Shown here in pieces: positions 42,393 to 58,839 of a stretch of 64,000 bases of DNA. Position numbers and translations under genes: made by a program. Position 1 is the stretch's first letter. Every line of letters begins with the position of its first letter. The stretch is from Chloroflexota bacterium (lineage in GTDB: Bacteria; Chloroflexota; Anaerolineae; Promineifilales; Promineifilaceae), in contig JAKEFB010000114.1 in assembly GCA_022616275.1 (NCBI GenBank), forward strand, positions 23,449 through 87,448, read 5' to 3'. The notes beneath the pieces are model-generated. The model was not told where the DNA came from. It made no database searches and worked only from the letters and a program-made list of their open reading frames with translations.

Positions 42393-42653
42393 TTATTTCG
42401 GCTGGGCGGCCATCACCTCGTTGAGCGTCTTGGACAGGCCGGCGAGCTGGCCCTCCACCGCCTTGAGACCGGCCAGGACCAACTCAAACTGGCTGTTGAC
42501 CACCTGGCTGACGGCCACCTGGACCTGGTCCTGGAGCGCCTTGGACTGCGTCAGGTTCTTCTCGAACGTGGTAAACAGATTCTCCATCGCCGCGTCGTTG
42601 AACTGCTGCCACAGCTCGAAGTTCTTCTGGAATGGGTTGTCTTGAAAGTTCAT
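42393..42653 (-). CDS. Phasin-like helical protein
   Basis: ATG 42653 has an excellent AAGGAG site; 86 residues. FQKNFELWQQFNDAAMENLFTTFEKNL and the following QDQVQVAVSQVVNSQFELVLAGLKAVEGQLAGLSKTLNEVMAAQ are long amphipathic helices, as in phasins that coat PHA granules. No catalytic motif is present. The function is inferred from the operon. Confidence 0.68.
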   Translation of the reverse strand: MNFQDNPFQKNFELWQQFNDAAMENLFTTFEKNLTQSKALQDQVQVAVSQVVNSQFELVLAGLKAVEGQLAGLSKTLNEVMAAQPK

Positions 42654-43267: not shown

Positions 43268-43300
43268 ATTATACGGTCTGGTGTTACGCCCTAGTTACAA
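43268..43300 (-). promoter_or_regulatory. SARP-type operator/promoter of the PHA operon
   Basis: On the minus strand heptamers TTGTAAC (43300-43294) and GCGTAAC (43289-43283) have an 11-bp period. Nine bases separate them from a perfect TATAAT (43273-43268). There is no -35, as usual for SARP-activated promoters. The start near 43260 leads to ATG 43173. Confidence 0.7.
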
Positions 43301-43304
43301 CCCC

Positions 43305-43350
43305 CAATCTCCAATCTCTAATCTCTAATCTCCAATTACCCAATTACGCC
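43305..43350. repeat. AATCTCC/AATCTCT word repeat
   Basis: Tandem units of CAATCTC/TAATCTC run into CAATTACC units, the inverted form of the 18072-18110 block. They fill the space between the SARP stop and the PHA operator. Confidence 0.7.
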
Positions 43351-43351
43351 A

Positions 43352-44155
43352 CTACCCCTCCCCCGCCACCACCTGCTCATACAGCCGGATCGTCTCGGCC
43401 ATTGGCTCAATGCCCAGTTCCTCAGCCAGCGCGGCGCGGCACTGGCGATAGACGCGCATGGCCAGCGGCCGGTTGCCGTTGGCCATGTGGCCGCGCATCA
43501 GCAGGCGGTAGGCCTCTTCCCAGCAGGGGTCAAGGGCAATAACCCGCTGGCACCACATGAGCATCTCGACGATGCTCCCTTCTTCCAGCAGCAGCCGGGC
43601 CAGCCGGGTCGCGCCGGAGAGGTAGAGAGCGGCCAGTCGCTCCCGTTCGGCGCTGGCCCAATCTTCGTAAATGGTATCGGGCAGGTACTCGCCCTGGTAC
43701 AGTTTCAGCGCTTCCTGGTAGTGGGCGATGGCTCCCGGCCGGTCGTTGCCTTCGGCCCGGCTGCCGGCCGCCAGGCCGTCTTCAAATTCGGTCACGTCCA
43801 GGCGGATGGGGGCCTCGCCGTTCAGGCCGTAGCTGGCCCCCTGCCGGGCGACGTAGACCGAGAGCGTGCGGGACGGCCGGTCCGGTTGCAGAGCGGTGTT
43901 GAGGGCGTTGAGGGCGACTTTAAAGTCCCGGTCGGCTTTGTCCGGGTCCAGCGCCGGCCACAAATCGTCCATGATGCGCTCTTTAATGGTAAAGCGCCGG
44001 CGGTAGGTGATCAGGTATTGGAACAACTGGCGGGCCTTGTCTCGCCCCCAGACGTTGTCCGGCCGTCGCTCCCCGTTCTGCCAGATGGCAAAGCGGCCGA
44101 GCGTTTGCACGTACAGTTCCCCCACCGGCGGTTCAGTTACAATTTCACGTGCCAT
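43352..44155 (-). CDS. SARP-family transcriptional activator (wHTH plus BTAD)
   Basis: 267 residues. The N-terminal ~100 form an OmpR-like winged helix: LYVQTLGRFAIWQNGERRP, KARQLFQYLITYRRRFTIKERIMDDLWP, and SVYVARQGASYGLNGEAPIRLD. The remainder is a bacterial transcriptional activator domain of TPR-like helices (LYQGEYLPDTIYEDWASAERERLAALYL... VYRQCRAALAEELGIEPMAETIRLYEQVV). Such SARPs bind heptamer direct repeats with 11-bp spacing just upstream of -10 boxes. Matching sites occur at its own promoter and at three others in this window. No extra ATPase domain is fused. It lies downstream of a broken oxidoreductase gene. Confidence 0.88.
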   Translation of the reverse strand: MAREIVTEPPVGELYVQTLGRFAIWQNGERRPDNVWGRDKARQLFQYLITYRRRFTIKERIMDDLWPALDPDKADRDFKVALNALNTALQPDRPSRTLSVYVARQGASYGLNGEAPIRLDVTEFEDGLAAGSRAEGNDRPGAIAHYQEALKLYQGEYLPDTIYEDWASAERERLAALYLSGATRLARLLLEEGSIVEMLMWCQRVIALDPCWEEAYRLLMRGHMANGNRPLAMRVYRQCRAALAEELGIEPMAETIRLYEQVVAGEG

Positions 44156-44164
44156 TGGACACGT

Positions 44165-44197
44165 ATTGTACCACCGTGAATTACAGGGGAATTACAA
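44165..44197 (-). promoter_or_regulatory. SARP-type operator/promoter of the SARP gene (autoregulation)
   Basis: Minus-strand TTGTAAT (44197-44191) and CTGTAAT (44186-44180) are 11 bp apart, then nine bases to TACAAT (44170-44165). The ATG (44155) is only 9 nt beyond the -10, implying a leaderless or nearly leaderless mRNA. Confidence 0.6.
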
Positions 44198-44414
44198 ATC
44201 CCATACCCTTGAGCATCTCAACCAGCGGCCGCGGCCGGGGCGGCCGGCCGGTGGCCGTTTCATACAGGCGCGGCCGTTCTACAAAGTGGGCGGCCGCGTT
44301 GACCAGCGTAACCGCTACCTGCTGCTGCTTCGTCTTACCCGCCAACCGGATCGCCGCCATCATTCCCGCGTACCCCGCGCCCAGGACAACAATTTGCATC
44401 TTTTGTTTGGACAT
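44181..44414 (-). pseudogene. Remnant of an NADH dehydrogenase-like flavoprotein gene
   Basis: Only the N-terminal ~77 residues remain: a dinucleotide fold IVVLGAGYAGMMAAIRLAG and LVNAAAHFVERPRLYETATG, as in type II NADH:quinone oxidoreductase-like proteins of ~400 residues. The frame then stops (MLKGMGFVIPL) where the SARP operator begins. The truncation probably happened when the SARP gene or repeat DNA came to lie here. Whether it is still translated is unknown. Confidence 0.75.
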
Positions 44415-44513
44415 AATCATACCTCACTTGCTGCCAATCAGGTTTTCTCTACCAGATAAGACAAGTGAGGCCGGACGTTTGTGACACGCACCCGGCCGTG
44501 CCGGGCGTTTTCA

Positions 44514-44558
44514 TTGTAACCACCTTGTAACTAACGCGTAACTTCCCCCCGATATAGT
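44514..44558 (+). promoter_or_regulatory. SARP-type operator/promoter of the adjacent hydrolase gene
   Basis: Three heptamers at exact 11-bp steps: TTGTAAC (44514-44520), TTGTAAC (44525-44531) and GCGTAAC (44536-44542). Ten bases later comes TATAGT (44553-44558). A further TTGTAAC is at 44590-44596, downstream of the start. Confidence 0.75.
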
Positions 44559-44624
44559 ACCTCCATTCGGCAACGACGCTTCAACTATCTTGTAACTGGC
44601 CAACAATTGAGGAGTCCTTAACTT

Positions 44625-45686
44625 ATGTCTGTCCCCACCCTACCAGGCATTACTTCGCAGATGACGCGCACCCGGCGCATCAACAGTCACGTTCTTTTCA
44701 GCGGGCCGGAAGAGGGTATTCCGGCCGTTTTTGTTCACGGCAACTTTTCCTCGGCCACCTATTGGGAGGAGACGATGCTGGCCCTGCCGGCCGGCTATCG
44801 GGCCATTGCTCCCGATTTGCGCGGCTACGGCGACACCGAGGCGCTGCCGACGGACGGGGCGCGCGGCGCGCGGGATTGGTCGGACGATTTGAAGGCCCTG
44901 CTGGACGAGTTGGCGGCCGGGCCCGCCCACCTGGTTGGCTGGTCGCTGGGCGCGGCCGTGCTGATGCAGTTCACCCTCGACTATCCTGAATTCGTCCGCT
45001 CCCTGACTTTCGTCAGCCCGGTCAGCCCCTACGGCTTTGGCGGCACGAAAGACGCGGCCGGCGCGCCCTGTTACGACGATTTCGCCGGCTCCGGTGGCGG
45101 CGTCGTCAATCCCGAATTCATCCGCCGCATCCAGGAAGGCGACCGCAGCGCCGACGACCCCAACTCGCCGCGTAACGTCATTAATACCTTCTATTACAAG
45201 GCGCCGTTCCGGGCGGCGCGGGAAGAGGAATTTCTGTCGGCCGCCCTCCTGGAGCGCATCGGCGAGCAGTACTACCCGGGCGACATGACTCCCTCGGCCA
45301 ACTGGCCCAACGTCGCCCCCGGCCGGTGGGGGCCAATCAACGCCACCTCGCCCAAATACTTCAACACCAGCGCCATCGTTAACCTGGCCCAGAAGCCGCC
45401 CATCCTCTGGGTTCGGGGTGATTCCGACTTGATCGTCTCCGACAACTCCATGTTCGACTTCGGCACGCTGGGCAAGCTGGGCTACGTCCCCGGCTGGCCA
45501 GGCGACGAGGTCTACCCGCCCCAGCCGATGGTCTCCCAGATGCGGGCCGTCCTGGAGCGTTACCAGGCCAACGGCGGCGCTTACCGCGAGGTCGTCATCG
45601 CCGACGCCGCCCACAGCCCCCATATCCAGAAGCCGGCCGAATCCAACGCCGCCTTCCACGCCTTTTTGCAAGAAGTGGGCGGGTAA
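44625..45686 (+). CDS. Alpha/beta hydrolase
   Basis: 353 residues with GAGGAG upstream. The hydrolase fold shows the oxyanion segment VFVHGNFSSATYW, DLRGYGDTEALP, the nucleophile elbow GWSLGA with Ser, the acid Asp in WVRGDSDLIV, and His in ADAAHSPHIQKP. No signal peptide is present, so it is cytoplasmic. The SARP-type operator upstream links it to the PHA and acyl-CoA genes, where it could act as a thioesterase or PHA oligomer hydrolase. That role is inference. Confidence 0.88.
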   Translation: MSVPTLPGITSQMTRTRRINSHVLFSGPEEGIPAVFVHGNFSSATYWEETMLALPAGYRAIAPDLRGYGDTEALPTDGARGARDWSDDLKALLDELAAGPAHLVGWSLGAAVLMQFTLDYPEFVRSLTFVSPVSPYGFGGTKDAAGAPCYDDFAGSGGGVVNPEFIRRIQEGDRSADDPNSPRNVINTFYYKAPFRAAREEEFLSAALLERIGEQYYPGDMTPSANWPNVAPGRWGPINATSPKYFNTSAIVNLAQKPPILWVRGDSDLIVSDNSMFDFGTLGKLGYVPGWPGDEVYPPQPMVSQMRAVLERYQANGGAYREVVIADAAHSPHIQKPAESNAAFHAFLQEVGG

Positions 45687-45803
45687 GCGAGTCTGCGAGT
45701 TTGCGAGTTTGCAAGTGGGCAGGTGACTACTCATCGCTCGTAGTTGGCAAGGCCAACTGCACTCATTGCTCATTGCTTTTTACTTTCTTGAGGAGGAAAG
45801 AAA

Positions 45804-47183
45804 ATGAACCGTCGTAGAACTTTGTTAAGTTTGTTGTCCCTATTGCTGGTCCTGGTGCTGGTCGCCTGTGGTGGCGCCCAGGAGGCGACCGAAGAGCCGA
45901 CCCAGGCCCCGGCCGAAACGGAAGCGGCCCCTGAAGAGACGGCCGAAGAGCCGACCGAAGAGGCAGTGGAGGAGCCAACCGAGGAGGCCATGGAAGAGCC
46001 AACTGAAGAGGCAATGGAAGAGCCGACCGAGGAACCGGCGGCCGAGCTGGGCGATCCGCTCAAGATTGGCGTCATGTCCGACCTCTCCGGCGGCCTGGCC
46101 CTCTTCGGCAACGAAATGTGGAATGGCTTGCAACTGGGTTTTGAATACGCCACTGACGGCACCATGGTCGCCGGCAACCGGCCGATTGAATTGATCATCC
46201 TCGACGACACCAGCGACGTAGAAGCCGGCGCGGCCGCCGCCCGCGAGCTGATCGAGTCTGAGGGCGTGGAAATCTTGATCGGCAACACCAGCTCGGCCGT
46301 GGCCCTGCAAGTGCAACAAATTGCCGACGAAAACGAGATCGTCTACTTTGCCGCCCCGGCGGCCGCGCCCGGTATCACCGGCGAGAACTGGAACCAGCAC
46401 ACCTTCCGCGTCTGCCGCAACGCCGCCCAGGATGGCCTGACGATGGCCGGCTGGTCCCTGGAAAACGTGGGCAGCAACTACCTCATCCTGGCCGAGGACT
46501 ACGCCTTTGGCCAGCAGACGGCCGCCGGTTTCCAGGCCGCTTTCAGCGCCCTGGGGGCTACTTTCCTGACCGAGGAACCGATTTACGCCCCCAGCGACAC
46601 GACCGACTTCACCCCCTACATCCAGGAAGTGCTGGAAGCTGAGCCGGACGGCCTGATCTTGATCTGGGCCACCAACACCAGCGGCACCATTCTCTTTGAA
46701 CAACTGAGCAGCCAGGGCGTGACCGGCAACATCCCCTTCATCACCGGCTTCTCGTCCAACGACACCATCCCGCTGCTGGACCCCGGCAACGTCGGCGCGA
46801 CCGGCCTGATCGTCTACCACTACAGCCTGCCCCAGACCGAAGCCAACGACTGGCTGGTCGAGCAGCACAACGAGCAGTTCGGCGGCAATCCTGACCTGTT
46901 CAGCGAGTGCGGCTTTGCCACCGCCCAGGCTGTGGCGGCCGCCCTGGAAGCCACCGGCGGCGACACCGACCCCGCCGCCCTCATTGCCGCCCTGGAGGGG
47001 CTGGAGTTTGAAGGGCCGAAGGGCACTTACGTCATCCGGCCGGAAGACCACCAGGCCCTGGCCTCCATGTACATCGTCCGCCTGGTGAGCGTAGACGACC
47101 CCGACGAGCGTTATTTCGAGCTGGTCGAGGAAATCAGCGGCGAACAAAGCGCCCCACCCTGCACCGCGCCCAACTGTGGCTAA
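45804..47183 (+). CDS. Branched-chain amino acid-type substrate-binding lipoprotein (LivJ-like)
   Basis: 459 residues with a lipoprotein signal (LLLVLVLVACGG, Cys ~22). A ~55-residue linker of EEPTEEA repeats follows, then a type I periplasmic-binding fold (LKIGVMSDLSGGLALFGNEM... IIGNTSS-like LIGNTSSAVALQVQQIADEN... LAEDYAFGQQTAAGFQAAFSALGATF). It captures branched-chain amino acids, amides or urea outside the membrane for the LivHMGF transporter that follows. The acidic repeat linker is typical of Chloroflexota binding proteins. Ligand identity is not certain. Confidence 0.9.
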   Translation: MNRRRTLLSLLSLLLVLVLVACGGAQEATEEPTQAPAETEAAPEETAEEPTEEAVEEPTEEAMEEPTEEAMEEPTEEPAAELGDPLKIGVMSDLSGGLALFGNEMWNGLQLGFEYATDGTMVAGNRPIELIILDDTSDVEAGAAAARELIESEGVEILIGNTSSAVALQVQQIADENEIVYFAAPAAAPGITGENWNQHTFRVCRNAAQDGLTMAGWSLENVGSNYLILAEDYAFGQQTAAGFQAAFSALGATFLTEEPIYAPSDTTDFTPYIQEVLEAEPDGLILIWATNTSGTILFEQLSSQGVTGNIPFITGFSSNDTIPLLDPGNVGATGLIVYHYSLPQTEANDWLVEQHNEQFGGNPDLFSECGFATAQAVAAALEATGGDTDPAALIAALEGLEFEGPKGTYVIRPEDHQALASMYIVRLVSVDDPDERYFELVEEISGEQSAPPCTAPNCG

Positions 47184-47190
47184 AAAAATA

Positions 47191-47237
47191 GGTTATTGGT
47201 TATTGGTTATTGGTATAATAACCAATAACCAATAACC
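47191..47237. repeat. Perfect 21-bp inverted repeat made of tandem GGTTATT words
   Basis: Three GGTTATT units (47191-47211) face three AATAACC units (47217-47237) around a 5-nt loop, between the binding-protein and livG genes. It may reduce read-through from the highly expressed binding protein into the transporter genes. Confidence 0.8.
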
Positions 47238-47251
47238 ACTCCCTGCCGGTC

Positions 47252-48028
47252 ATGTCCAACAACAATGTTATCCTGGAAACCCATGACCTTTCCCGCCACT
47301 TCGGCGGCCTCAAGGCGGTCGAGGGGGTCAATTTGGCCATTCACGCCGGCCACCTCCACTCCATCATCGGCCCCAATGGGGCCGGCAAGACGACCCTTTT
47401 CAACCTGCTCAGCGGCACGCTCAAGCCCAGCCGCGGCCGGATCTTCCTGCGCGGCCAGGACATCACCGACTTCCCGCCGCACCGTAGCGCCCACCTGGGG
47501 CTCGGCCGCTCCTACCAGATTACCAACATCTTCCCTAACCTGACCGTCTTTGAAAACGTCCGCCTGGCCGCCCAAGCCCTCGGCCGGGACAACTTCAAGC
47601 TGTTCGCCCCGGCCGGCCGCTTCAAGCAGTACGAGGAAAAAGCCGGCCAGGCGCTGGCCGAGACTGGGCTGCTGGAGGCCGCGGTCGCCCCGGCCCGCAA
47701 CCTGCCCCACGGCGACAAGCGCCGGCTGGAGCTGGCCCTGCTGCTGGCCCAGGAACTGGACATCTGGCTGCTGGACGAGCCGACGGCCGGCCTGGCCTCA
47801 GAACAGGTCCCGGCTTTCATGGCCGTGCTGGACCGGATGCGCAAATTGGCCAACAAGACCGTCGTCCTGGTCGAGCACAACATGAGTGTGGTCATGTCCC
47901 TGTCCGACCGCATCTCGGTCATGCACCAGGGCCAGCTCCTGGCCGAAGGCGCCCCGGCCGAGATTGCCGCCAACGAAACGGTCCAGAAGGCCTACCTGGG
48001 CGAACTGTATAGCGATTTTGGATTTTAG
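47252..48028 (+). CDS. livG: Branched-chain amino acid ABC transporter ATPase LivG
   Basis: 258 residues. Walker A GPNGAGKTT, Q-loop GRSYQITNIFPNLTVFENVRL typical of LivG, signature region LPHGDKRRLELALLLAQ (degenerate, as in LivG), Walker B IWLLDEPTAGL and His in VEHNMSVVMSL. It energises the LivHM permease together with LivF. The last codons run into the TTTTAGAT repeat block. Confidence 0.92.
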   Translation: MSNNNVILETHDLSRHFGGLKAVEGVNLAIHAGHLHSIIGPNGAGKTTLFNLLSGTLKPSRGRIFLRGQDITDFPPHRSAHLGLGRSYQITNIFPNLTVFENVRLAAQALGRDNFKLFAPAGRFKQYEEKAGQALAETGLLEAAVAPARNLPHGDKRRLELALLLAQELDIWLLDEPTAGLASEQVPAFMAVLDRMRKLANKTVVLVEHNMSVVMSLSDRISVMHQGQLLAEGAPAEIAANETVQKAYLGELYSDFGF

Positions 48029-48047
48029 ATTTTAGATTTTGGATTTT
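48013..48047. repeat. GATTTTGGATTTTAG heptad repeat
   Basis: Tandem TTTTAGA/TTTTGGA units, the complement of the 9813-9847 block. They overlap the 3' end of livG, whose TAG stop is inside the repeat. Confidence 0.75.
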
Positions 48048-48050
48048 GAG

Positions 48051-48131
48051 TAACTGCTCAGGCCGGTCTCATGACCGAGCCTGGAGTGGCGCGGTCTGAG
48101 ACCGGCCACAGCTAGAGAGCCTGAGTAGTTA
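48051..48131 (-). repeat. 81-bp structured dispersed repeat, copy 2 (inverted relative to copy 1)
   Basis: Begins TAACTGCTCAGGCC and ends GAGTAGTTAC. Arms GGCCGGTCTCATGACCG (48061-48077) and CGGTCTGAGACCGGCC (48092-48107) preserve the hairpin of 12873-12953 with only a few changes. It lies between livG and livF, so it would be transcribed within that operon. Confidence 0.8.
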
Positions 48132-48153
48132 CGATTTTGGATTGGTATCCAAA

Positions 48154-48855
48154 ATGACTGTTTTGAGCGTTGACGACATCCACACCTTCATCGGCCAGTT
48201 CCACATCCTCGAAGGGGTGACGGTGAGCGTGCCGGCCAACAGCATTGCGGTGTTGCTGGGGCGCAATGGGGCCGGCAAGACGACCACCCTGCGCAGCATT
48301 ATGGGGCTCAACCCGCCGGCCAGCGGCGCCATTCGCTATCAAGGCGAAATGATTAACGGCCGGCGGCCGTTCGACATCGCCCAACTCGGCATCGGCTACG
48401 TGCCCGACTACCGGGCCATCTTCCGCCAACTGACCGTCGAAGAGAACCTGAAAATCGCCGAGCGGCAGAAGGGCGACCTGGCCCGCAAGCAGGAATTCAT
48501 CTTCAAGGTCTTCCCCGACCTGCAGCGCCTCTATCACTGGCCCGGCGGCCAGCTTTCCGGTGGCCAACAGCAAATGCTGGCCGTGGCCCGGGTCCTGGTC
48601 CCCGACAACACCCTGCTGCTGATTGACGAACCCAGTGAAGGGTTGGCCCCGGTCATCATCGAGCAAATGATGGCCGCCATCCGCCAGCTCAGCAGCCAGA
48701 CGACGATCTTGCTGGTCGAGCAAAATTTCCACGTGGCCCGGCAACTGGCCGACCGCTACGTCATTATTGAGGACGGCCGCTCCGTCCATGAGGGCTTAAT
48801 GGCCGACCTGGTCAAAGACCAGGCGTTGATTAACCGCTACCTGGGGGCCGCCTGA
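48154..48855 (+). CDS. livF: Branched-chain amino acid ABC transporter ATPase LivF
   Basis: ATG 48154; 233 residues. Walker A GRNGAGKTT, VPDYRAIFRQLTVEENL (LivF-type Q-loop region), signature LSGGQQQML, Walker B LLLIDEPSEGL and His replaced in VEQNFHV, as is normal for LivF. It partners LivG. A structured repeat element of 81 bp separates the two ATPase genes. Confidence 0.92.
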   Translation: MTVLSVDDIHTFIGQFHILEGVTVSVPANSIAVLLGRNGAGKTTTLRSIMGLNPPASGAIRYQGEMINGRRPFDIAQLGIGYVPDYRAIFRQLTVEENLKIAERQKGDLARKQEFIFKVFPDLQRLYHWPGGQLSGGQQQMLAVARVLVPDNTLLLIDEPSEGLAPVIIEQMMAAIRQLSSQTTILLVEQNFHVARQLADRYVIIEDGRSVHEGLMADLVKDQALINRYLGAA

Positions 48856-48879
48856 CGGCCGCCTCCGCACGGGTGACGT

Positions 48880-49884
48880 ATGGCTGCAACCACTCCCACG
48901 CTGCGCACCGGCGCTTTTCGCCAATCGCTGATTGTCTCCGGCCTCTTCGTCCTGGGCCTGCTGGCGGTGAACTTTCTCTTCTTTTCGCCCGGCACGGTAG
49001 CCGTCGTCGTGCTGTCCGGCCTGTACCAGGGCATGCTCTTCTTCCTGGTGGCGGCCGGCATGTCCATCGTCTTCGGCCTGCTCGACGTGCTCAACCTGGC
49101 CCAGGGCTCCTTTTTCATGCTCGGCGCTTACGCCGGCTTTGCCATTTACGGGGCGCTGCCGGAAGGGACGCCGACGACGGTGCGCTTTGTTGCCGCTTTA
49201 GTGGGCGCGGTGCTGGCCGGCGGGCTGCTGGGCGGGGTGGTCGAGATCGGCCTGCTCCGGCCGCTCTACCAGCGCCCCATCTTCCAGATCGTCCTGACCT
49301 TCGGCCTGGCCATTGCCATTGAGCAGGTCGTCCGCACCATTTACGGCCCGGCCGGGCTGGTCCCCATTCAGCCACCGGCGGTGCTGGACACTACCTTCTC
49401 CCTCCTGGGCGGCCGGTTTGAAACCTACCGGGTCTTTATTATCGCCGTCGGCTTCCTGTTGATGGTCTCGATCTCCCTGCTGTTGCAGCGCACCCGCCTG
49501 GGCATCGTCATCCGGGCCGGCGTCCAGGACAGCGAGATGGTCGAAGCCCTGGGCATCAACGTCCGCCGGGTCTTTACCCTGGTCTTTATCCTGGGCACGG
49601 CCGTAGCCGCGCTGGGCGGCATGACCGCCGCCCCCTTCCTGGGCGCCTTCCCCGGCATGGGCGGCCAATTTTTGCTGACGGCCGTCATCGTCATCGTCAT
49701 TGGCGGCATGAGTAGCTACGAGGGCACGGCCATCGCCAGCATCCTGGTCGGGCTGACGCGAGCCACGGCCGAGCAACTGTCGCTGCAATATTTCAACACC
49801 CCGGTCCTGGCCAGCATCTCCATCCTGGTCTTTATGGTCGTCGTCCTCCTGGTAAAACCCAACGGCCTCTTCGGCCGGGAGTGA
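48880..49884 (+). CDS. livH: Branched-chain amino acid ABC transporter permease LivH
   Basis: 334 residues, about eight transmembrane helices. SIVFGLLDVLNLAQGSFFMLGAYAGF is the LivH core and GIVIRAGVQDSEMVEALGINVRRVFTLVFILGTAVAALGG is the ATPase-coupling region. It forms the inner-membrane channel with LivM. The livM start is 3 bp after its stop. Confidence 0.92.
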   Translation: MAATTPTLRTGAFRQSLIVSGLFVLGLLAVNFLFFSPGTVAVVVLSGLYQGMLFFLVAAGMSIVFGLLDVLNLAQGSFFMLGAYAGFAIYGALPEGTPTTVRFVAALVGAVLAGGLLGGVVEIGLLRPLYQRPIFQIVLTFGLAIAIEQVVRTIYGPAGLVPIQPPAVLDTTFSLLGGRFETYRVFIIAVGFLLMVSISLLLQRTRLGIVIRAGVQDSEMVEALGINVRRVFTLVFILGTAVAALGGMTAAPFLGAFPGMGGQFLLTAVIVIVIGGMSSYEGTAIASILVGLTRATAEQLSLQYFNTPVLASISILVFMVVVLLVKPNGLFGRE

Positions 49885-49887
49885 AAC

Positions 49888-51213
49888 ATGCCACCACGCC
49901 TTGACGCCGCCGCCCCTCGTTATCGCTCAGCGCTCCTCATCCTGGCCCTGCTCCTCTTCGTGCTCGTCCCCTATGGTTACGCAGCGGCCGCCGGGACGGC
50001 CGAAGGCGAGCTGGCCGGCCTGGCCAGGCTGCACAGCGCCGCCGAATCGGTCTACTGCGCCGACGGCCGGACGACCGTAACCACTATCCTGGCGGTAGAG
50101 CTGGCCCTGGTCACGGCGGCCGTCGCCGCCGCCCACCTGCTCCCAACCCGCTTGAGCCGGCCGCTGCGCTTCCTGCGGCCAGACGGCTGGCATATGCTGG
50201 TCCTGGCTCTGCTAATCACCCTGCCTTTCCTCATCGCCTGGCAGACCGAATCATCCGTCTGCTCGCGAGGCAGGGCCTTCTTCTGGCAATCCATTTTCGT
50301 AGACGTTTTCATCCTGGCCATCCTGGCCATTAGCTACAACCTGATCTTTGGCTTCAGCGGGGTGGTCTCCTTCGGCCACGCCGCTTTCTTTGGCACCGGC
50401 GCTTACACGGTCGGACTACTGATGGCCCACCTGGCCTGGCCCTGGTGGCTGGCCATCCTGGCCGCCCTGCTGGTTGGGGTGCTCATTGCCCTGGTCAAAG
50501 GGTTCGTCGGCCTGCGCATCCGGGGCTTGTACTTCGCCCTTTTCACCCTGGCTTTTGCCGAGGTCTTCTTCGTCCTGGCCGGCAACCGCATCCTGGCCGA
50601 TATTACCGGCGCGGAAGACGGCTTTACTTTTTCCGTGCCGGAGTGGTTAAACATCACCAGGAACCGCCTCTTCTTCTATTATCTGGCTCTGCTGGCACTG
50701 GTCCTGGCCTTTCTGCTGGTCCGCCGGTTGATCAACTCCCCCACCGGCCGGGTGCTCCACGCCCTGCGCGACAACGAAGACCGGGCCCAAATGTTGGGCT
50801 ACAACACCTTCCACTTCAAGCTCATTGCCATCGTCATTGCCGGCCTTCTGGCCAGCGGCGCCGGCGTGCTGCGCGGCCTGGCCCTCAAAGGGGCCAGCCC
50901 CAACGTGCTCAGCCTGGACTTCACCATCACCCCCCTGCTGATGGTCATCATTGGCGGCATGGGCACCTTTGCCGGTCCGGTCGTTGGCGCGTTTGGTCTG
51001 CGGTTGATTGAACAATATCTGCGCGACACCGTTTTCACCATTGGCGGCGTAGAAGTCAACATCGGCGAGCGCTGGGCGCTCATCCTGGGCCTGATCTTTA
51101 TTCTCAGCGTGATGCTCTTCCCCCAGGGCATTGTCGGCACTTGGTACAGCAAAAGGCTAAACACCGCCGCCGGGTGGAAACGGCTTTTTCGGAGATTAGA
51201 GATTAGAGATTAG
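49888..51213 (+). CDS. livM: Branched-chain amino acid ABC transporter permease LivM
   Basis: 441 residues. About 130 N-terminal residues with three extra hydrophobic segments precede the LivM core: ISYNLIFGFSGVVSFGHAAFFGTGAYT, LRIRGLYFALFTLAFAEVFF, GRVLHALRDNEDRAQMLGYNTFHFKLIAIVIAG (coupling loop) and IGGMGTFAGPVVGAF. Long LivM forms also occur in enterobacteria. It is the last gene of the transporter operon. A GAGATTA word repeat starts inside its final codons. Confidence 0.92.
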   Translation: MPPRLDAAAPRYRSALLILALLLFVLVPYGYAAAAGTAEGELAGLARLHSAAESVYCADGRTTVTTILAVELALVTAAVAAAHLLPTRLSRPLRFLRPDGWHMLVLALLITLPFLIAWQTESSVCSRGRAFFWQSIFVDVFILAILAISYNLIFGFSGVVSFGHAAFFGTGAYTVGLLMAHLAWPWWLAILAALLVGVLIALVKGFVGLRIRGLYFALFTLAFAEVFFVLAGNRILADITGAEDGFTFSVPEWLNITRNRLFFYYLALLALVLAFLLVRRLINSPTGRVLHALRDNEDRAQMLGYNTFHFKLIAIVIAGLLASGAGVLRGLALKGASPNVLSLDFTITPLLMVIIGGMGTFAGPVVGAFGLRLIEQYLRDTVFTIGGVEVNIGERWALILGLIFILSVMLFPQGIVGTWYSKRLNTAAGWKRLFRRLEIRD

Positions 51214-51233
51214 AGATTGTTAAGCTCTAATCT
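51193..51233. repeat. AGATTAG tandem repeat at the livM 3' end
   Basis: Four GAGATTA units overlap the final livM codons and stop, then TCTAATCTCC in the opposite sense follows, giving a weak hairpin in the convergent spacer. Confidence 0.7.
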
Positions 51234-51239
51234 CCATAT

Positions 51240-53174: not shown

Positions 53175-53293
53175 GGCCAGGGCTGACCTTCCTCCTTCAG
53201 CACGAGCCTCTTCGTGGAAGACATTGTAACGGAAGGTTAGCGAGGGACCAATAGGTAGAGTAACCTATTTGTACTGGTAAAGGTCACAATTCG

Positions 53294-53524
53294 TCAAGCA
53301 GGATTCGAGTAAGCCAGCAGCATCTCCCTGGCAAGTTTGAGAACGGCTACAGCTTGTTCGCGACTTACACTGGGGAAGTGGTCAAGGAATTCTTCAAGCG
53401 AGTCACCTGCTTCCAAATAGTCTAACAGGGTTTTGACTGGCACTCGCGTACCGACGAAAACCGACGTTCCACCGAGTATGTCCGGGTCGCTATGTATCAG
53501 GTGAGATGCTGTTTCCATCTCCAA
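53294..53524 (-). CDS. DUF433 protein in the HEPN/MNT module
   Basis: The likely start is TTG 53524, immediately after the HEPN stop; ATG 53518 is the alternative. It has 76 residues with the core IHSDPDILGGTSVFVGTRVPVKTLLDYLEAG and LEEFLDHFPSVSREQAVAVLKLA. DUF433 proteins are usually antitoxins of PIN-like nucleases. Here it is the third gene behind MNT and HEPN, with no toxin of its own, so it could be a DNA-binding repressor of the module. Confidence 0.85.
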   Translation of the reverse strand: MEMETASHLIHSDPDILGGTSVFVGTRVPVKTLLDYLEAGDSLEEFLDHFPSVSREQAVAVLKLAREMLLAYSNPA

Positions 53525-53935
53525 CTAGGAAATCGCCTCTACTTCCCGTAAATACCTTTCCAGGCGAGTTACAAAGTGTTCAGTATCATCAACAATTTGT
53601 TTAGCCGTTAGCGCGTCTAATTTGGTGGCTACGTCACTGTAGTCCTGTTCCTCGCGCCACTTGCGGGCATCCCGGTAGAACCGGCCGTACTCGACTTCAA
53701 TGATTCCCGGTTTAATAACATGCTGGTTGAAGGCGGCCTCGATTGCCGAGTGTTTACTTCTCTCCACGTCTAACCACAACAGAACGGCCGAGGCAATATG
53801 AAAGGCAGCATAATAAGCCCGGTTGACGGCCGCTCGCCAGCGCAATAGACCAAGCAACTCTTGAGCCGTTGCCAGGTCTTCGGCCGCCCTATCCACCCTT
53901 AGGCGAATGATGGTTCGCTTTGCGGCGATGTCCAT
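53525..53935 (-). CDS. HEPN domain toxin-like protein
   Basis: 136 residues, all helical. The HEPN RNase motif R-x6-H is present as R39-AYYAAF-H46. HEPN proteins of this type are ribonucleases that form toxin-antitoxin pairs with MNT nucleotidyltransferases. The antitoxin inactivates them by adding AMP to a Tyr near the motif, and Y41/Y42 stand in the right place. The gene overlaps the MNT gene by 37 bp, an intimate arrangement that supports the pairing. Confidence 0.88.
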   Translation of the reverse strand: MDIAAKRTIIRLRVDRAAEDLATAQELLGLLRWRAAVNRAYYAAFHIASAVLLWLDVERSKHSAIEAAFNQHVIKPGIIEVEYGRFYRDARKWREEQDYSDVATKLDALTAKQIVDDTEHFVTRLERYLREVEAIS

Positions 53936-54306
53936 AAAACAATGCCGTCCTGCTCAATATTGCGGTTGATGAGTAGATTCCATTGCTGCATCCTGGCATA
54001 CCCCTGCTCGTCTTCAATTAAAAAGGAAAAGACAACGTCATAATCCAGTTCCAGATCGTATGTCCCATCCATAATCCGTTGGCGAGCGCGAATGTAGTTG
54101 TTATCGGACAAGCGAATAACAATCAGTACATCCAGGTCAGATTCATTGTCAAAGTCGCCACGTGCTTTGGAGCCAAAGAGGACAACTCGTAATAAGTCAC
54201 TCCCAAACCAGTTTTGCAGGCGGGCAACCAGCGTAACCAGGGCCGAACGTTCATTCTCGGCCAGGTGCAATGGCAAGCGATCTTTCTTGAGTTTGGGTTC
54301 AGCCAT
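53899..54306 (-). CDS. MNT-type nucleotidyltransferase (antitoxin-like)
   Basis: 135 residues. The minimal nucleotidyltransferase signature is complete: GSKARGD (45-51) and SDLD with D57 and D59, then a third acidic residue in DLELDYDVVF. Such MNT proteins AMPylate the partner HEPN toxin. The first gene of the three-gene module MNT-HEPN-DUF433. No convincing promoter was seen in the ~90 bp upstream. Confidence 0.88.
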   Translation of the reverse strand: MAEPKLKKDRLPLHLAENERSALVTLVARLQNWFGSDLLRVVLFGSKARGDFDNESDLDVLIVIRLSDNNYIRARQRIMDGTYDLELDYDVVFSFLIEDEQGYARMQQWNLLINRNIEQDGIVLWTSPQSEPSFA

Positions 54307-54400
54307 CAGCCGTACTCAGATGTTGTTAATTACCTACTCCAACGAGATTATATCGTAAGTAGCAACCTGTGGACAGGGAGATTAAGATGCGCCCAAATTT

Positions 54401-55945
54401 CTACTGCGCTATATATTGGCCGCGCAATTCGCGTTTGAGGATTTTGCCGGCGGCCGAGATGGGTAGGCTGTCCATGATTTCGATGCGCCGGGGCACTTTG
54501 TAGCCGGCCAGCCGGGCGCGCAGGTGTTCCTGTAGCTCCCCCGGGGTGGCCGTCGCCCCTGCTTTCAGGACCACGCAGGCCAGCCCCACTTCGCCCCACT
54601 TCTCATCGGGCAGGCCGACGACGGCGCACATGTGGACGGCCGGGTGCTCGTACAGCGCCTGCTCAATTTCGGCCGGGTAAACGTTTTCGCCGCCGGAGAT
54701 GAACATATCCTTCTTGCGGTCTACGATGGTGAAGTACCATTCCTCGTCGTAGACGGCCATGTCTCCGGTGTGGAACCAGCCCTCGCCGTCCACCACCTCT
54801 CGCGAGGCGGCCGGGTTGTTGAAATAGCCGGAGGAGACGCTGGGGCCTTTCAGGGCCAGCTCACCCACCTGGCCGGGGCCGAGCGGCCGGTTGTCTTCGT
54901 CCACCACCCGGGCATCCACGTAAAAATTGGGCCGGCCGATGCTGCCGGCCTTGCGGATAGCATCCTCCGCGGCCAGGGCAAAAACGCCCGGCCCGAACTC
55001 GGTCATGCCAAAGCCCTGCTTGAAGCGAATCCCTTTTTCGGCCGTGTACTGCTCGACCAGTGAGACCGGCAGTGGCGCGCCGCCGCTGGTGCAGAAACGC
55101 AGCGAGGACAGATCGGCGGCCGGCCAATTGGCCGCCTGGGCCAACATCTGGTACATCGTCGGCACACCGGCGAAGACCGTGACCCGCTCTTGCTCAATTA
55201 ATTGCAGCACCTTTTCCGGCTCAAACTGGCGGACCAGGATAGTCGCGCCGCCCAGAATCACTTGCGGCAGGGTATAGACAAACAGGCCGCCGGTGTGGAA
55301 CAAGGGGAAAACGTTCAGGTAGACGTCGTCGTGGTGCAGGTCGTGGATGACGGTATTCAGCGTATTCCAGGCAATCATGCGGTGGGAAACCTGGGCCGCT
55401 TTGGGCAGGCCGGTGGTGCCGCCGGTGAAGATAAGCGCCGCAATCGTTTCTTCCGTCACCCCGGCCGTCGTCACTGGGGTAGACGGGCTGCTCTGTAGCG
55501 CCGCTTCGAAGTGGCGGCCGCCAGGCAGGCCTTCTCCTTCCAGGTGTAGGAGGTGAGTGATGGACGCGGCCCGAGGGTCTTGCTGTAACTGCCCGGCCGC
55601 CTCAACGAAGTCGCCAGAATAAATCAGCACGCGCGGCGTCGTCTCGGCCAGGATGTGGCCGATTTCCTGCCAGTGCAACCGCCAATTGAGAGCGGTGTGG
55701 ATGGCGCCCAGCTTGCCGCAGGCAAAAAAGGTGTCCAGGTGCTCCACGCCGTCGCGGGCCAGGATGGCCACCCGGTCGCCAAAGGCCACGGCCGCTTCGC
55801 CGCGCAGCCAGTTGGCCAGCCGGTTGGCCCGTTCGTTCATCTGGGCGTAGCTCAGCCGCCAGGCCGGCGCTTTACCCGCGTCTACGATGGCCACCCGATC
55901 CGGCGAATAAATGGCTCGCCGCCCAAGGTAATCCCCAATCTCCAA
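54401..55945 (-). CDS. AMP-dependent acyl-CoA ligase (FadD-like)
   Basis: 514 residues. ANL motifs: A3 FTGGTTGLPKAA, A5 GFGMTEFGPGVFA, A7 HTGDMAVYDEEWYFTIVDRKKDMF, and A10 Lys in AAGKILKREL. The likely start is TTG 55945. It and the first codons (ME-IGDYLGRRA) lie in a GAGATTGGGGATT intergenic word, so the repeat supplied the start. The ligase activates acids to acyl-CoA or acyl-AMP. It is the last gene of a four-gene run with a KAS III-like protein, a hydrolase and an SDR, all possibly under a SARP operator. Confidence 0.88.
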   Translation of the reverse strand: MEIGDYLGRRAIYSPDRVAIVDAGKAPAWRLSYAQMNERANRLANWLRGEAAVAFGDRVAILARDGVEHLDTFFACGKLGAIHTALNWRLHWQEIGHILAETTPRVLIYSGDFVEAAGQLQQDPRAASITHLLHLEGEGLPGGRHFEAALQSSPSTPVTTAGVTEETIAALIFTGGTTGLPKAAQVSHRMIAWNTLNTVIHDLHHDDVYLNVFPLFHTGGLFVYTLPQVILGGATILVRQFEPEKVLQLIEQERVTVFAGVPTMYQMLAQAANWPAADLSSLRFCTSGGAPLPVSLVEQYTAEKGIRFKQGFGMTEFGPGVFALAAEDAIRKAGSIGRPNFYVDARVVDEDNRPLGPGQVGELALKGPSVSSGYFNNPAASREVVDGEGWFHTGDMAVYDEEWYFTIVDRKKDMFISGGENVYPAEIEQALYEHPAVHMCAVVGLPDEKWGEVGLACVVLKAGATATPGELQEHLRARLAGYKVPRRIEIMDSLPISAAGKILKRELRGQYIAQ

Positions 55946-55972
55946 TCTCTAATCTCCAATCACTCAATTACT
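55932..55972. repeat. AATCTCC/AATCTCT repeat at the ligase start
   Basis: Tandem CCAATCTC/TAATCTC units followed by CAATTACTT. It overlaps the 5' end of the ligase and the 3' end of the KAS III-like gene. Confidence 0.7.
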
Positions 55973-57009
55973 TCCTGCGTCCACTGCCACACGCTACAAG
56001 CCATCGAAATCCCGCCGCCACTGGCGCAGAAGAGAACCACATCGCCCGGTTTCGGCCCCCGGCCGCGCTCCAGGGCGTCGTCCAGGGCCATCGGCACGCA
56101 GGCCGAGCCGGTGTAGCCCCATTTATCCATCACCCAATGCGTTTTTTCCAGCGGTTGCCGCAAAATGGCCATCACCTGCTTGATAGTGTTGACGTTCAAC
56201 TGCGTGAACAAAAAGAAATCCACGTCGTCTATGGCCAGGCCGGCCTTGGCCACGGTGTCCCGGATGAGGGGTGGCCAGTGGTCGGCGTTGAACGTGGCCG
56301 GGAACTTCTTGACGAATTGCACCCGGGGCACGCCGCCATTTTCATCCACCGGCGTCCGGGGACAGGCCGCGCCGCCAGTATAAATGCCCAGTGCATCGTA
56401 ATACTGGCCGGCCGCCACCAGCTTGCTGGCCAGAAAACCAGGTTCCGAGCCGGCGCCCACGACCACCGCCCCGGCCCCATCGGCGAAGAGCGTGCAGGTC
56501 CGGTGGTCGCCGTAGTCCAGGAAGCGGCTCATGCCGTAAGCACCCACGACCAGGACGTGGTTGACTTCGGCGTCGGTCAGAATGTAGCGGGCGGCCACAT
56601 CCACGGCCGTCACCCAGCCGGCGCAGGCGGTGTTGACGTCAAAGGTTCCGGCCTTGCCTGCGCCCAGCTTGTGCTGCAGCACGGTGGCCGTGGCCGGGCT
56701 GAGGTAATCGGGCGTGTCGGTGGCCACGATGATCAGGTCCAGCCTGGCCGGGGCCAGGCCGGCCCGGGCCAGGGCCTGCCGGCCGGCCGGCAAGGCCAGG
56801 TCGCTGGTCGTCTCCTCGGGAGCCATGACGTGCCGCTGGCGAATGCCGACGTTGGCCACCAGCCAGCCATCAATGTCCCGCTCTGGAAACAACTGGTTGA
56901 AGTAGGTGTTGGGCAACACCTTTTCCGGCACATAGCGGCCGGTGCTGAGGATTTGGGCGTATCTTGGGGATGTGGTTGTGTGGTTGTGTGGTTGTGTAGT
57001 TGTGTCCAT
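55960..57009 (-). CDS. KAS III-like ketoacyl synthase lacking the usual His and Asn
   Basis: From ATG 57009, 349 residues. The thiolase fold and nucleophile are clear: C129 in DVNTACAGW, and FADGAGAVVV and ASGGGISMACS match FabH. The catalytic His of the HQAN motif is T269 (FTQLN). The Asn of GNTSAAS is Y299 (GYTGSAC). Decarboxylative condensation as in FabH is therefore unlikely; acyl transfer or non-decarboxylative Claisen chemistry is possible. Residues 3-15 (TTTQPHNHTTTSP) come from a GTTGTGTGGTTGTG repeat. It lies between a hydrolase and a CoA ligase in one operon. Confidence 0.85.
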   Translation of the reverse strand: MDTTTQPHNHTTTSPRYAQILSTGRYVPEKVLPNTYFNQLFPERDIDGWLVANVGIRQRHVMAPEETTSDLALPAGRQALARAGLAPARLDLIIVATDTPDYLSPATATVLQHKLGAGKAGTFDVNTACAGWVTAVDVAARYILTDAEVNHVLVVGAYGMSRFLDYGDHRTCTLFADGAGAVVVGAGSEPGFLASKLVAAGQYYDALGIYTGGAACPRTPVDENGGVPRVQFVKKFPATFNADHWPPLIRDTVAKAGLAIDDVDFFLFTQLNVNTIKQVMAILRQPLEKTHWVMDKWGYTGSACVPMALDDALERGRGPKPGDVVLFCASGGGISMACSVWQWTQEVIE

Positions 57010-57046
57010 TTTGGCCAATCCCCTAATCCCCTAATCCCCGCCGAAA
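56964..57046. repeat. GTTGTGTG and AATCCCCT tandem repeats at the KAS III start
   Basis: Four GTTGTGTG-type units (56972-57006) lie within the N-terminal codons of the KAS III-like gene. Three AATCCCCT units (57016-57041) precede it. The CACAACCACA form of the first word also begins the STAND gene at 6137-6162. Confidence 0.7.
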
Positions 57047-57852
57047 TCTTTTAAGAATGCCACGATAGCCATTACTGTCGCGGCCGGGTCTTCGATGGGG
57101 AAGAGGTGGCCGGCGTTGGGCAGGATGGTTACCCGGGCGTTGGCAATTTTGGCCGCCATTAGCCCGGCGTTGCCCGCTGGCACGACATTGTCGTTCTCGC
57201 CAAAGAGGATGAGGGTCGGGACCTGGATAGCCCGCATCTGCTGCTCGACCTGGGCGCTGCTCCATTGGGCCGTGCCCATGCCGGCCATGACCTGGGCCGT
57301 GTACTGCGCCGGCGGCACAGGGTTGCCAAGGCGGTAAGCAATCAACTCCTGGACAACGGCCGGGTCTCTCTCGGCAAAACCAGGCGCGGTGGCAATGCCA
57401 ATGCCCCGCCGGATGATCTCCAGCGGATCGCCCTGGCGGTTGGTCATGACGGCGATAGCCTGGGGCGTAGTTGGAATCACTGCCAGCCCGCCGTGGTTGG
57501 TGCTGGCCAGGATAAGCCGGCCGGCCAGCTCCGGCCGGGTGGCGACCAGCCGCTGAACAATGTAGCCGCCCAGGGAATGACCCAGGACGGCCGCCCGGCG
57601 AATCCCCAGGGCGTCCAGCAACCCGGCCGTGTCGGCGGCCATCATATCCACCGTATAGGGACCGTCCGGCCTGTCGCTCTCGCCGGCCCCCCGGTTGTCA
57701 AACACCGTCACCCGAAAATGCCGGGCCAGCCCCGGCACGACCCGGCGCCAGAACCAGCCGCCAGACCCAATCCCGGTCACCAGCACCAAATCCGGCCCGG
57801 CGCCATCCTGTTCATAGGCGATAGTAATCCCGTTCGCGACAACCTTTGGCAT
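57031..57852 (-). CDS. Alpha/beta hydrolase of the acyl-chain operon
   Basis: ATG 57852 after AGGAGAG gives 273 residues. Nucleophile elbow GHSLGG with Ser, oxyanion stretch VTGIGSGGWFW, acid Asp in LFGENDNVVP, His in NAGHLFPIED. It resembles 3-oxoadipate enol-lactonase or esterase-type hydrolases. In the context of ligase, KAS III and SDR it may release or trim acyl chains. The Ser nucleophile distinguishes it from OleB, which uses Asp. Confidence 0.87.
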   Translation of the reverse strand: MPKVVANGITIAYEQDGAGPDLVLVTGIGSGGWFWRRVVPGLARHFRVTVFDNRGAGESDRPDGPYTVDMMAADTAGLLDALGIRRAAVLGHSLGGYIVQRLVATRPELAGRLILASTNHGGLAVIPTTPQAIAVMTNRQGDPLEIIRRGIGIATAPGFAERDPAVVQELIAYRLGNPVPPAQYTAQVMAGMGTAQWSSAQVEQQMRAIQVPTLILFGENDNVVPAGNAGLMAAKIANARVTILPNAGHLFPIEDPAATVMAIVAFLKDFGGD

Positions 57853-57862
57853 CTCTCTCCTG

Positions 57863-57987
57863 AAAGGACTGAGGACTGAGGACTGAGCGATGAGCGATGA
57901 GTAATCACCCGCCCACCCGCCTACTCGCAAACTCGCAAACTTGCCTACTTGCCACCTGCCCTTTGCGCCTTTGCGCCTTTGCGTCAA
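57863..57987. repeat. Composite intergenic word repeat
   Basis: Tandem ACTGAGGACTGAG, GCGATGAGCGATGAG, CTCGCAAACTCGCAAAC and TTTGCGCCTTTGCGCC blocks follow one another between the SDR and hydrolase genes. The CGAGTTTGCGAGTTTGC form recurs at 45689-45712. Confidence 0.7.
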
Positions 57988-57990
57988 ATC

Positions 57991-58755
57991 CTACGTTCCG
58001 ACGACGAGGCCGCCATCTACCCGCAGGACGGCCCCGTTGATAAAGCGGGCCTCGTCGGAAGCCAGGAAGGCGTAGGCGTTGGCGACCTCGGCCGCCTCAC
58101 CCAGCCGCCCCAGTGGGATCCGGCCGCGCATGTGCTCCAGGACTTTCTCCGGCACGGCCAGCAGCATTTCCGTGGCAATAAAACCGGGCGCGACGGCGTT
58201 GACCCGGATGCCGTACCGGCCGAGTTCCCGCGCCCAGACCCGGGTCATCCCGACCACGGCCGCCTTGCTGGCCACGTAATTGCTCTGGCCAAAGTTGCCG
58301 TCCAGGCCAACCACCGAAGAGGCGTTGAGAATCACCCCGGCACCCTGGCGGACCATCGCCGGGACCACCGCCTGGGCGCAGTTAAACACGCCTTTGACGT
58401 TGACGTTCATCACCGCGTCAAAGGCCTCTTCACTCATCTGCCCGGCCACCTGTCCGTCTTTGAACTTGACCAGTTGGGCGTCGCGGACAATGCCGGCGTT
58501 GTTGACCAGGACGTCCACCCGGCCGAACTGCTCAATGACAGCGTCCACCCACTGCTGCACGGCCGCCCGCTCCGCCACGTTGACGGCCTGAAAAGCAGCC
58601 CTTGGCCCCAGCACCGCCGCCGTCTCCCGGCCAGCCGCTTCATTCAAATCAGCAAAGGCGACGACGGCCCCTTCCTGGACAAACTTCTCAGCCGTGGCCC
58701 GGCCGATCCCGGCCGCGCCGCCGGTAATCAAGCACACCTTATCTTTTAGCCGCAT
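57991..58755 (-). CDS. Short-chain dehydrogenase/reductase (FabG/PhaB-like)
   Basis: 254 residues, classical SDR. TGGAAGIG cofactor motif, NNAG in VLVNNAGIV, catalytic Ser in LNASSVVGLDG, and YVASK in SNYVASKAAVVGMTRVWARELG. FADLNE after strand 2 starts with Asp, which favours NAD(H). FabG/PhaB-like enzymes reduce 3-ketoacyl-ACP or acetoacetyl-CoA; the latter would supply PHA monomer. It is first in a four-gene operon preceded by a SARP-type operator. Confidence 0.88.
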   Translation of the reverse strand: MRLKDKVCLITGGAAGIGRATAEKFVQEGAVVAFADLNEAAGRETAAVLGPRAAFQAVNVAERAAVQQWVDAVIEQFGRVDVLVNNAGIVRDAQLVKFKDGQVAGQMSEEAFDAVMNVNVKGVFNCAQAVVPAMVRQGAGVILNASSVVGLDGNFGQSNYVASKAAVVGMTRVWARELGRYGIRVNAVAPGFIATEMLLAVPEKVLEHMRGRIPLGRLGEAAEVANAYAFLASDEARFINGAVLRVDGGLVVGT

Positions 58756-58807
58756 GGAGATCTCCCGGATGAGTGCTGAACGATGCGTGTTGAGCCATGC
58801 TCAGCAC

Positions 58808-58839
58808 TCTATCACAGTTGAGTTACAAACGGGCTACAG
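58808..58839 (-). promoter_or_regulatory. SARP-type operator/promoter of the SDR operon
   Basis: Minus-strand CTGTAGC (58839-58833) and TTGTAAC (58828-58822) are 11 bp apart, followed after eight bases by TGT-GATAGA (-10 at 58813-58808, extended). About 50 nt to ATG 58755. Confidence 0.55.

Follow-up and report, generated by a model that had tools for sequence, protein, structure and literature searches.

Phased heptamer promoters around a SARP gene in a Chloroflexota bacterium: a predicted regulon for acid use and polyester storage

Regulators of the SARP (Streptomyces antibiotic regulatory protein) family are best known from Streptomyces antibiotic genes and have been studied as antibiotic switches. 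Heptamers repeated every 11 bp near a -10 element also form the Pho box of PhoB/PhoP, and class III polyhydroxyalkanoate (PHA) synthase operons bring together PhaC, PhaE and phasins. AfsR of Streptomyces coelicolor is a large SARP studied by cryo-EM, and an excerpt of PMC10936776 describes a side-by-side dimer on two 11-bp repeats at -40 to -19 which replaces -35 recognition. For PimR, a SARP-LAL regulator of an antibiotic cluster, two repeats are needed for binding, and the operators consist of a heptamer with a 4-bp spacer in two or three copies (excerpt of PMC5930380). The excerpt of a 2024 review places SARPs exclusively in actinobacteria (PMC10972967). Here we analyse a stretch of 64,000 nucleotides (the window) from a Chloroflexota bacterium of the order Promineifilales (contig JAKEFB010000114.1), in which promoters with 11-bp-phased heptamers were found on both sides of a SARP gene and before further operons. 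Taken as a whole, the reading that the adjacent SARP uses the four elements as operators, with a shared regulon, an AfsR-like mode of action and the ancestry proposed below, is very probably correct.

The four sites and the regulator gene are as follows; WRG is our own name for a protein domain, taken from its Trp-Arg-Gly motif.

43268..43300, minus strand: operator-promoter 1, TTGTAAC (43300-43294), N4, GCGTAAC (43289-43283), gap of 9, TATAAT (43273-43268); upstream of the WRG/PhaE-like and phasin-like (PHA) operon
44165..44197, minus strand: operator-promoter 2, TTGTAAT (44197-44191), N4, CTGTAAT (44186-44180), gap of 9, TACAAT (44170-44165); upstream of the SARP gene
44514..44558, plus strand: operator-promoter 3, three heptamers 11 bp apart, TTGTAAC (44514-44520), TTGTAAC (44525-44531) and GCGTAAC (44536-44542), gap of 10, TATAGT (44553-44558); upstream of the hydrolase/transporter operon
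58806..58839, minus strand: operator-promoter 4, CTGTAGC (58839-58833), N4, TTGTAAC (58828-58822), gap of 10, TAGAGT (58811-58806); upstream of the short-chain dehydrogenase (SDR)/hydrolase/ketoacyl synthase III (KAS III)/ligase operon
43352..44155, minus strand: stand-alone SARP regulator of 267 aa, identified by its BTAD domain, AfsR alignment, orthologs and tree position

All four phased-heptamer sites claimed in a first-pass annotation of the window were found in the sequence, with heptamers 11 bp apart and a -10 box 9-10 bp on. The -10 boxes named there stood at sites 1 to 3, while GATAGA at site 4 (gap 8) was replaced: this -10 is better read as TAGAGT, because a gap of 10 is the dominant spacing in relatives. 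The claim of a SARP-type operator geometry is backed by its recurrence in relatives and in Bacillota. With the -10 element at -12 to -7 and a gap of 10, the heptamers fall at -40 to -34 and -29 to -23, which is the register of the afs box. The TACAAT of site 2 sits only 9 nt upstream of the SARP ATG, so the transcript from this site is possibly leaderless. Lone TTGTAAC copies at 53224, 53574, 44590, 44142, 13111 and 60349 were not taken as operators. Short tandem TCTAATCTC-like repeats occupy window positions 43300-43345, from the SARP stop codon to site 1. An inverted repeat at 58852-58890 adjoins site 4, close to the listed GTG start of a penicillin-binding protein open reading frame (ORF), whose true start may lie further downstream.

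The first-pass identification of a SARP gene at 43352-44155 was confirmed. BTAD (PF03704) matches residues 119-262 in Pfam with 95.6 bits against a cut-off of 22.1, and the protein aligns with AfsR across residues 10-262, nearly its full length. On the basis of this predicted domain and the operator geometry, the protein is placed in the SARP family (AfsR/ActII-ORF4/DnrI type). No NTPase/TPR sensor region was found in the 267-aa protein beside its BTAD domain. Orthologs are present in two genomes of the same family, G044 (68% identity) and G046 (64%), and the stand-alone form was found in these two and the window genome. Other SARP matches in the window genome, among the matches listed, show 30-34% identity and no close sensor-type paralog was found there, while G044 and G046 carry both stand-alone and sensor-type SARPs. 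Elsewhere in the order, related SARP domains belong mostly to open frames of about 1,000-1,170 aa. Domain order was tested in four sensor-type regulators (two of the order and two of Bacillota), the other regulators being known by open-frame length alone; in all four the SARP domain is C-terminal, behind TPR repeats, with TPR_12 above cut-off in three and a STAND/NTPase-type match in three, above cut-off in one. A tree of 47 SARP domains distinguished the Bacillota members as one group (99/98) and the stand-alone SARPs as another (94/97). The recognition-helix motif [FL]K[IVT][ATS] is present in 43 of 45 domains, Bacillota included; one of the remaining two has an unread letter and that of L160 is different.

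The window system shares with AfsR the SARP domain, the two 11-bp direct repeats and the promoter register. AfsR possesses NTPase (NOD) and TPR domains, as do the regulators of the relatives, whereas the window SARP has no sensor; the SARP domain is N-terminal in AfsR but C-terminal in the tested relatives, and the window targets are metabolic. Where AfsR has the base-contacting residues T88 and R92, the aligned window protein has V and A, a replacement in keeping with the different heptamer. The PimR heptamer, CGGCAAG, is also unlike that of the window, and the main PimR operator, in contrast to the window sites, lies clear of the -35 box; site 3, with three copies, resembles the PimR/SARP-LAL arrangement in copy number. 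Compared with the Pho box, the regulator in the neighbourhood is a SARP and the targets differ. PhaC-like genes and small coiled-coil proteins are common to the window and class III PHA synthase operons, but the first gene of the window operon has a WRG domain and SARP control is proposed for it. The system differs from the Streptomyces SARPs in lineage, target genes, heptamer and, for the tested relatives, domain order. The usual SARP setting of actinobacteria and antibiotic clusters was not found here, as relatives occur in Bacillota and the gene set is metabolic. Among the open-access matches listed for SARPs and for PHA regulation in Chloroflexota, no title or abstract beginning described SARP control of polyester storage.

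Conservation of the sites was analysed with a matrix composed of the window's nine heptamers and a generic -10 element, with a score of at least 18 as the site threshold. It was applied to 53 loci (771 kb; 48 of the order and five of Bacillota) fetched for relatives of the SARP, of its first target or of KAS III. The scan gave 51 sites, compared with a mean of 2.0 in five dinucleotide shuffles (2, 4, 1, 3 and 0; top shuffle score 22.3). Forty-two of these sites lead into a homolog of a window target gene on the same strand within 800 bp (tblastn E<=1e-5), and 33 of the 53 loci have at least one site; for the order alone, there were 42 sites, 37 with a target gene, in 28 of 48 loci. An earlier count had given 51 sites, 43 with a gene, in 33 of 48 loci with 2.2 expected; it left out L062, L231-L233 and L236, and L234 and L235 had entered it after their sites had been seen. 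The 53-locus count adds L062, L274-L276 and L236 and uses a stricter gene match. In the window genome, sites 3 and 4 score 29.9 and 26.6.

The sites were found to be associated with gene clusters beside SARPs. Of 44 SARP loci, 26 have three or more target types no further than 12 kb from the SARP domain, and a site is present in 23 of these 26 clustered loci compared with 5 of the 18 others, some of which are short contigs or contig ends. The clusters contain homologs of KAS III, ligases, hydrolases, SDR and the branched-chain-type (LIV) transporter, and are often led by WRG. Sites precede WRG, KAS III, hydrolase, ligase, SDR and transporter genes, so different operons carry them in different genomes. 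Spacing was analysed in 41 loci of the order and five of Bacillota. In the 41 loci, heptamer pairs with a summed score of at least 16 number 26 at spacing 11 and 13 at spacing 22, with at most seven at any other spacing (8-24); at a score of at least 13, TANNNT at gap 10 follows 26 of 49 phase-11 pairs but only 2 of 159 pairs of other spacing. The WRG/PhaE-like ortholog is preceded by an 11-bp-phased site in both G044 (CTGTAAC-N4-GCGTAAC) and G046 (TCGTAAC-N4-GCGTAAC), and a look based on KAS III in 10 genomes found sites in G019 and G032. The sites, their geometry, conservation and linkage, like the conservation of the recognition helix, are direct observations.

A scan of named genomes revealed eight relatives, five of which, with 37-42% identity, lie in Virgibacillus (two), Paenibacillus (two) and Sporosarcina. 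All five Bacillota loci have transporter genes nearby, together with a ligase gene, a KAS III-like gene or both; the fetched stretches of three contain hydrolase and SDR genes as well, and in all five a site stands directly upstream of the transporter binding-protein gene. TANNNT at gap 10 follows 4 of 11 phase-11 pairs compared with 0 of 67 others. In both the window's order and Bacillota, the SARP clade is accompanied by the predicted operator, the recognition helix and the metabolic gene set.

Pattern searches of the window genome gave a divided result: the exact form matched only at sites 1 and 3, the -10-coupled form exceeded the control, and pairs with up to one mismatch stayed at background. 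Exact NTGTAAC-N6-GTAAC has three matches in the 8.53-Mb genome, one being site 1 and two overlapping ones site 3, all inside about 1.3 kb. GTARY-N6-GTARY-N8..10-TANNNT has eight matches compared with two in the reversed control; four are the four sites, and of the others one lies in the gap separating a BTAD-containing SARP paralog from a divergent gene, two are within ORFs and one is at an ORF edge. These search patterns were drawn from the window sites themselves, and the main support therefore comes from the independent loci.

The PHA operon downstream of site 1 is composed as follows.

42670..43173, minus strand: WRG and PhaE-like first gene of the operon; WRG domain of ~55 aa, then a PhaE-like coiled-coil tail
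42393..42653, minus strand: phasin-like protein; start predicted, named by sequence look and context
42336..42378, minus strand: strong hairpin, no U-tract; -41.3 kcal/mol, z -6.81 for 42315-42400
42016..42318, minus strand: PhaE-like small protein of 100 aa; weak family matches, 27% match in the PhaC operon of G056
40922..42019, minus strand: PHA synthase-like protein 1 (PhaC); PhaC_N 58.9 bits, above cut-off
39747..40904, minus strand: PHA synthase-like protein 2 (PhaC); PhaC_N match in Pfam
38123..39703, minus strand: AMP-dependent acyl-CoA ligase (LIG1), from family searches

The first gene probably starts at 43173, where homology begins. The tail of its product matches that of 42016-42318 (30% over 63 aa). 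For the WRG protein, searches of families, Pfam included, and of solved structures gave nothing above cut-off or noise. WRG domain matches occur in 68 of 249 genomes of the class, often adjoining SARP genes in the window's order; the alignment (A1) comprises 18 of 19 WRG proteins, L109 being left out for a stop inside the match, and 11 of 30 loci. In all three stand-alone SARP genomes the small WRG protein carries the PhaE-like tail, while beside sensor-type SARPs most WRG open frames are short, at roughly 60-110 aa, and those in L111 and L112 run into the next gene. The phasin-like protein has no Pfam or NCBIfam family match above cut-off, so its label rests on sequence look and context; homologs follow the WRG gene in G046 (54-56%) and open the PhaC operon of G056 (36%). 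PhaE and phasin families were not recognised by Pfam or NCBIfam, the best PHA-related match being TIGR01837 (E 0.044, below cut-off). The class III PhaC model of NCBIfam, TIGR01836, gave 314 and 308.9 bits for the two synthase-like proteins, both under the cut-off of 365.3. A TATACT located 6 nt upstream of the ATG of the PhaE-like gene (42016..42318) may be a second promoter of the operon. It lies with the hairpin between the granule-type genes and the PhaE-like/PhaC genes, and transcription from operator 1 may be largely confined to the former. The fetched stretches of G044 and G046 (L061, L162) showed no PhaC close to the SARP orthologs, and a PhaC fragment stands at the contig end of the sensor-type cluster of G046 (L123). 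In G056, from another family, a regulator and a site (score 28.6) are found with a phasin-like gene, PhaC, a PhaE-like stretch (27%), a second PhaC-like gene, a KAS III-like gene and an SDR; the position of this site before the phasin-like/PhaC operon supports the PHA link.

The other target operons, downstream of sites 3 and 4, contain the following genes.

44625..45686, plus strand: alpha/beta hydrolase (HYD44), from family searches; homologs in SARP-linked clusters
45804..51213, plus strand: LIV ABC transporter; binding protein, two ATPases and two permeases
57991..58755, minus strand: short-chain dehydrogenase (FabG/PhaB-like), from family searches
57031..57987, minus strand: alpha/beta hydrolase (HYD57), from family searches
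55960..57018, minus strand: KAS III-like ketoacyl synthase (KAS3), from family searches
54401..55945, minus strand: AMP-dependent acyl-CoA ligase (LIG2), from a family search

The hydrolase named as a target in the first reading does follow site 3, but its operon is longer than was stated there and runs on into the LIV transporter. Four components of the transporter were assigned by family search and the second ATPase (48142-48855) by position and homologs. The best matches of KAS3 are FabH-type models, under their cut-offs. An olefin (OleABCD) reading of the SDR/hydrolase/KAS III/ligase operon was dropped because the SDR is FabG-like. A HEPN and nucleotidyltransferase gene pair, toxin-antitoxin-like, is situated at 53525-54306 between two target operons.

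By analogy with AfsR, two SARP protomers would bind next to each other on heptamers spaced by one helical turn; the pair would take the place of -35 recognition and keep both sigma region 4 and RNA polymerase on an otherwise weak promoter. What we infer here is SARP binding to the heptamers, activation, a ligand, the pathway and the ancestral state. The regulon would cover uptake by the LIV-type transporter, CoA activation by two ligases, carbon-carbon bond chemistry and reduction by KAS III and the SDR, and ester cleavage by two hydrolases, along with the granule and synthase proteins of PHA, a gene set which probably couples the use of carboxylic or hydroxy acids to polyester storage. The ancestral regulator was probably an NTPase/TPR sensor carrying its SARP domain at the C-terminus, in charge of a single linked cluster. 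In the window genome the genes lie in several operons with predicted operators, and a sensorless SARP remains. If true, this would add a new regulator type to those of polyester storage. That the WRG protein is the SARP partner, with granule-bound WRG reporting the polymer load to the SARP, is doubtful; such a circuit would be a counterpart of the PhaR/PhaP circuit, built on an activator. On this reading, the first regulon gene would have gained its PhaE-like tail where the regulator lacks the NTPase/TPR sensor.

Several results weigh against the reading of the sites as operators of one SARP regulon. The winged-helix part is covered by the AfsR alignment, with the W74 and P79 positions kept, but Pfam gave no Trans_reg_C match for the window protein, and in a Virgibacillus homolog the match is below cut-off (E 1.8e-4). 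Sites 1 and 2 have a gap of 9 rather than 10. Site 2, on which putative autoregulation of the SARP depends, keeps one heptamer in G046 and none was seen in G044, so the SARP gene as its own target stands by the presence of the site but is weakly conserved in the orthologs. The PHA operon, likewise an early candidate, has site 1 before its first gene, kept in G044 and G046, while SARP control of phaC itself is uncertain because of the strong hairpin between it and the granule-type genes. The broader claim of one regulon for polyester or acyl-chain metabolism is accordingly backed by conservation and a fitting gene set, and is weaker for phaC control and autoregulation. No site of at least 18 was found in 20 of the 53 loci, and the locus counts are not independent, as close relatives and several loci per genome are included. 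The gene cluster is present in L124, L132 and L139, where repeats with this geometry are weaker. In G027, G028 and G029, 19 kb each gave no site for the SDR-KAS III-ligase operon, although the SARP clade is kept; the KAS III gene of G038 (L236) also has none, on a contig which starts just before the gene. In Bacillota, spacing 11 by itself is not enriched, so the support there rests on the site with its -10 element and on position. With up to one mismatch, three Bacillota genomes gave 3, 3 and 3 matches compared with 3, 2 and 3 in controls, using a pattern set after two of these sites had been seen; the single zero-mismatch match of each genome lies inside the SARP cluster, and five of the nine matches are in clusters. 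A search with two mismatches in 57 genomes showed no excess over the reversed control in most genomes of the order, and in the window genome gave 16 matches compared with 1 but spread over several heptamer types; it was too noisy to define a regulon. As a separate observation, L124 and L132 (G053, G055) carry TGGTTAC-N4-TGGTTAC before the WRG gene, with 11-bp phasing and N10 to TANNNT but a score below threshold, a possible drift of the heptamer.

Chance, in which promoter-like words were picked after the fact, could draw on the background level of the one-mismatch pairs in the window genome (49 matches, site 4 included, compared with 62 in the control). It is extremely improbable, since it is contradicted by the 53-locus test, and the clustering, the specific spacing and the independent return of the sites before genes of the same kinds also speak against it. 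It is very unlikely that the boxes belong to an OmpR/PhoB-type response regulator. Such regulators also use heptamers with 11-bp phasing, placed about 10 bp upstream of the -10 element, and a hybrid histidine kinase is encoded at 51240-53174, but in many genomes, Bacillota among them, the sites adjoin a SARP. The window kinase has no listed match in 42 loci, where no general search of the clusters for OmpR-type genes was made, and a copy of each of three other heptamers with this geometry in the window genome (TGAAACG, TGTCACG and CGTAGCG) lies next to a BTAD gene. A narrower possibility is that SARP control extends to the granule-type genes and no more than one or two further promoters, the other sites being leftovers of the regulon of a lost sensor-type SARP. 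The loss would fit a window genome without a close sensor-type paralog beside relatives (G044, G046) with both types, and in G044 the hydrolase and other sites share a contig with the sensor-type SARP (L157) while the WRG/PhaE-like site is beside the stand-alone one. This explanation is rather unlikely: sites 3 and 4 are well preserved in the window genome without that paralog, which suggests continued use, and the recognition helix is alike in stand-alone and sensor-type regulators.

The reading of a SARP acting on its own phased heptamers may extend beyond this locus. The window genome has 28 SARP matches, and three further heptamer types of the same geometry have a copy beside a BTAD gene, so promoters there may often be controlled in this way. 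The recurring systems provide material for a heptamer-to-helix recognition code and for what NTPase/TPR sensors detect. Pairs of TGAAACG at 11 bp with N10 to TANNNT number five (four exact and one with one mismatch), of which one is beside a BTAD gene/SARP paralog.

G000:C22:29291, C43:23327, C43:28192 (minus strand), C56:3594 and C56:13498: TGAAACG sites (L256-L260, L277-L279)

Several of them precede genes for secreted-looking proteins, and a second SARP regulon is possible. A TGTCACG pair at 11 bp (L289 4217-4249; G000:C6:88716-88748, minus strand) lies between a BTAD gene and a divergent gene; two such sites were found among the matches listed, one beside a SARP paralog, and the pair resembles the Pho box in sequence. 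A CGTAGCG pair at 11 bp was observed around 1501-1532 of L071 (G000:C189), also between a BTAD gene and a divergent gene. Each SARP may have its own heptamer. In G007, a genome with 45 SARP matches, a run of CGTAACG (CGTAACGATCTCGTAACG-like) pairs before TANNNT boxes was observed on many contigs.

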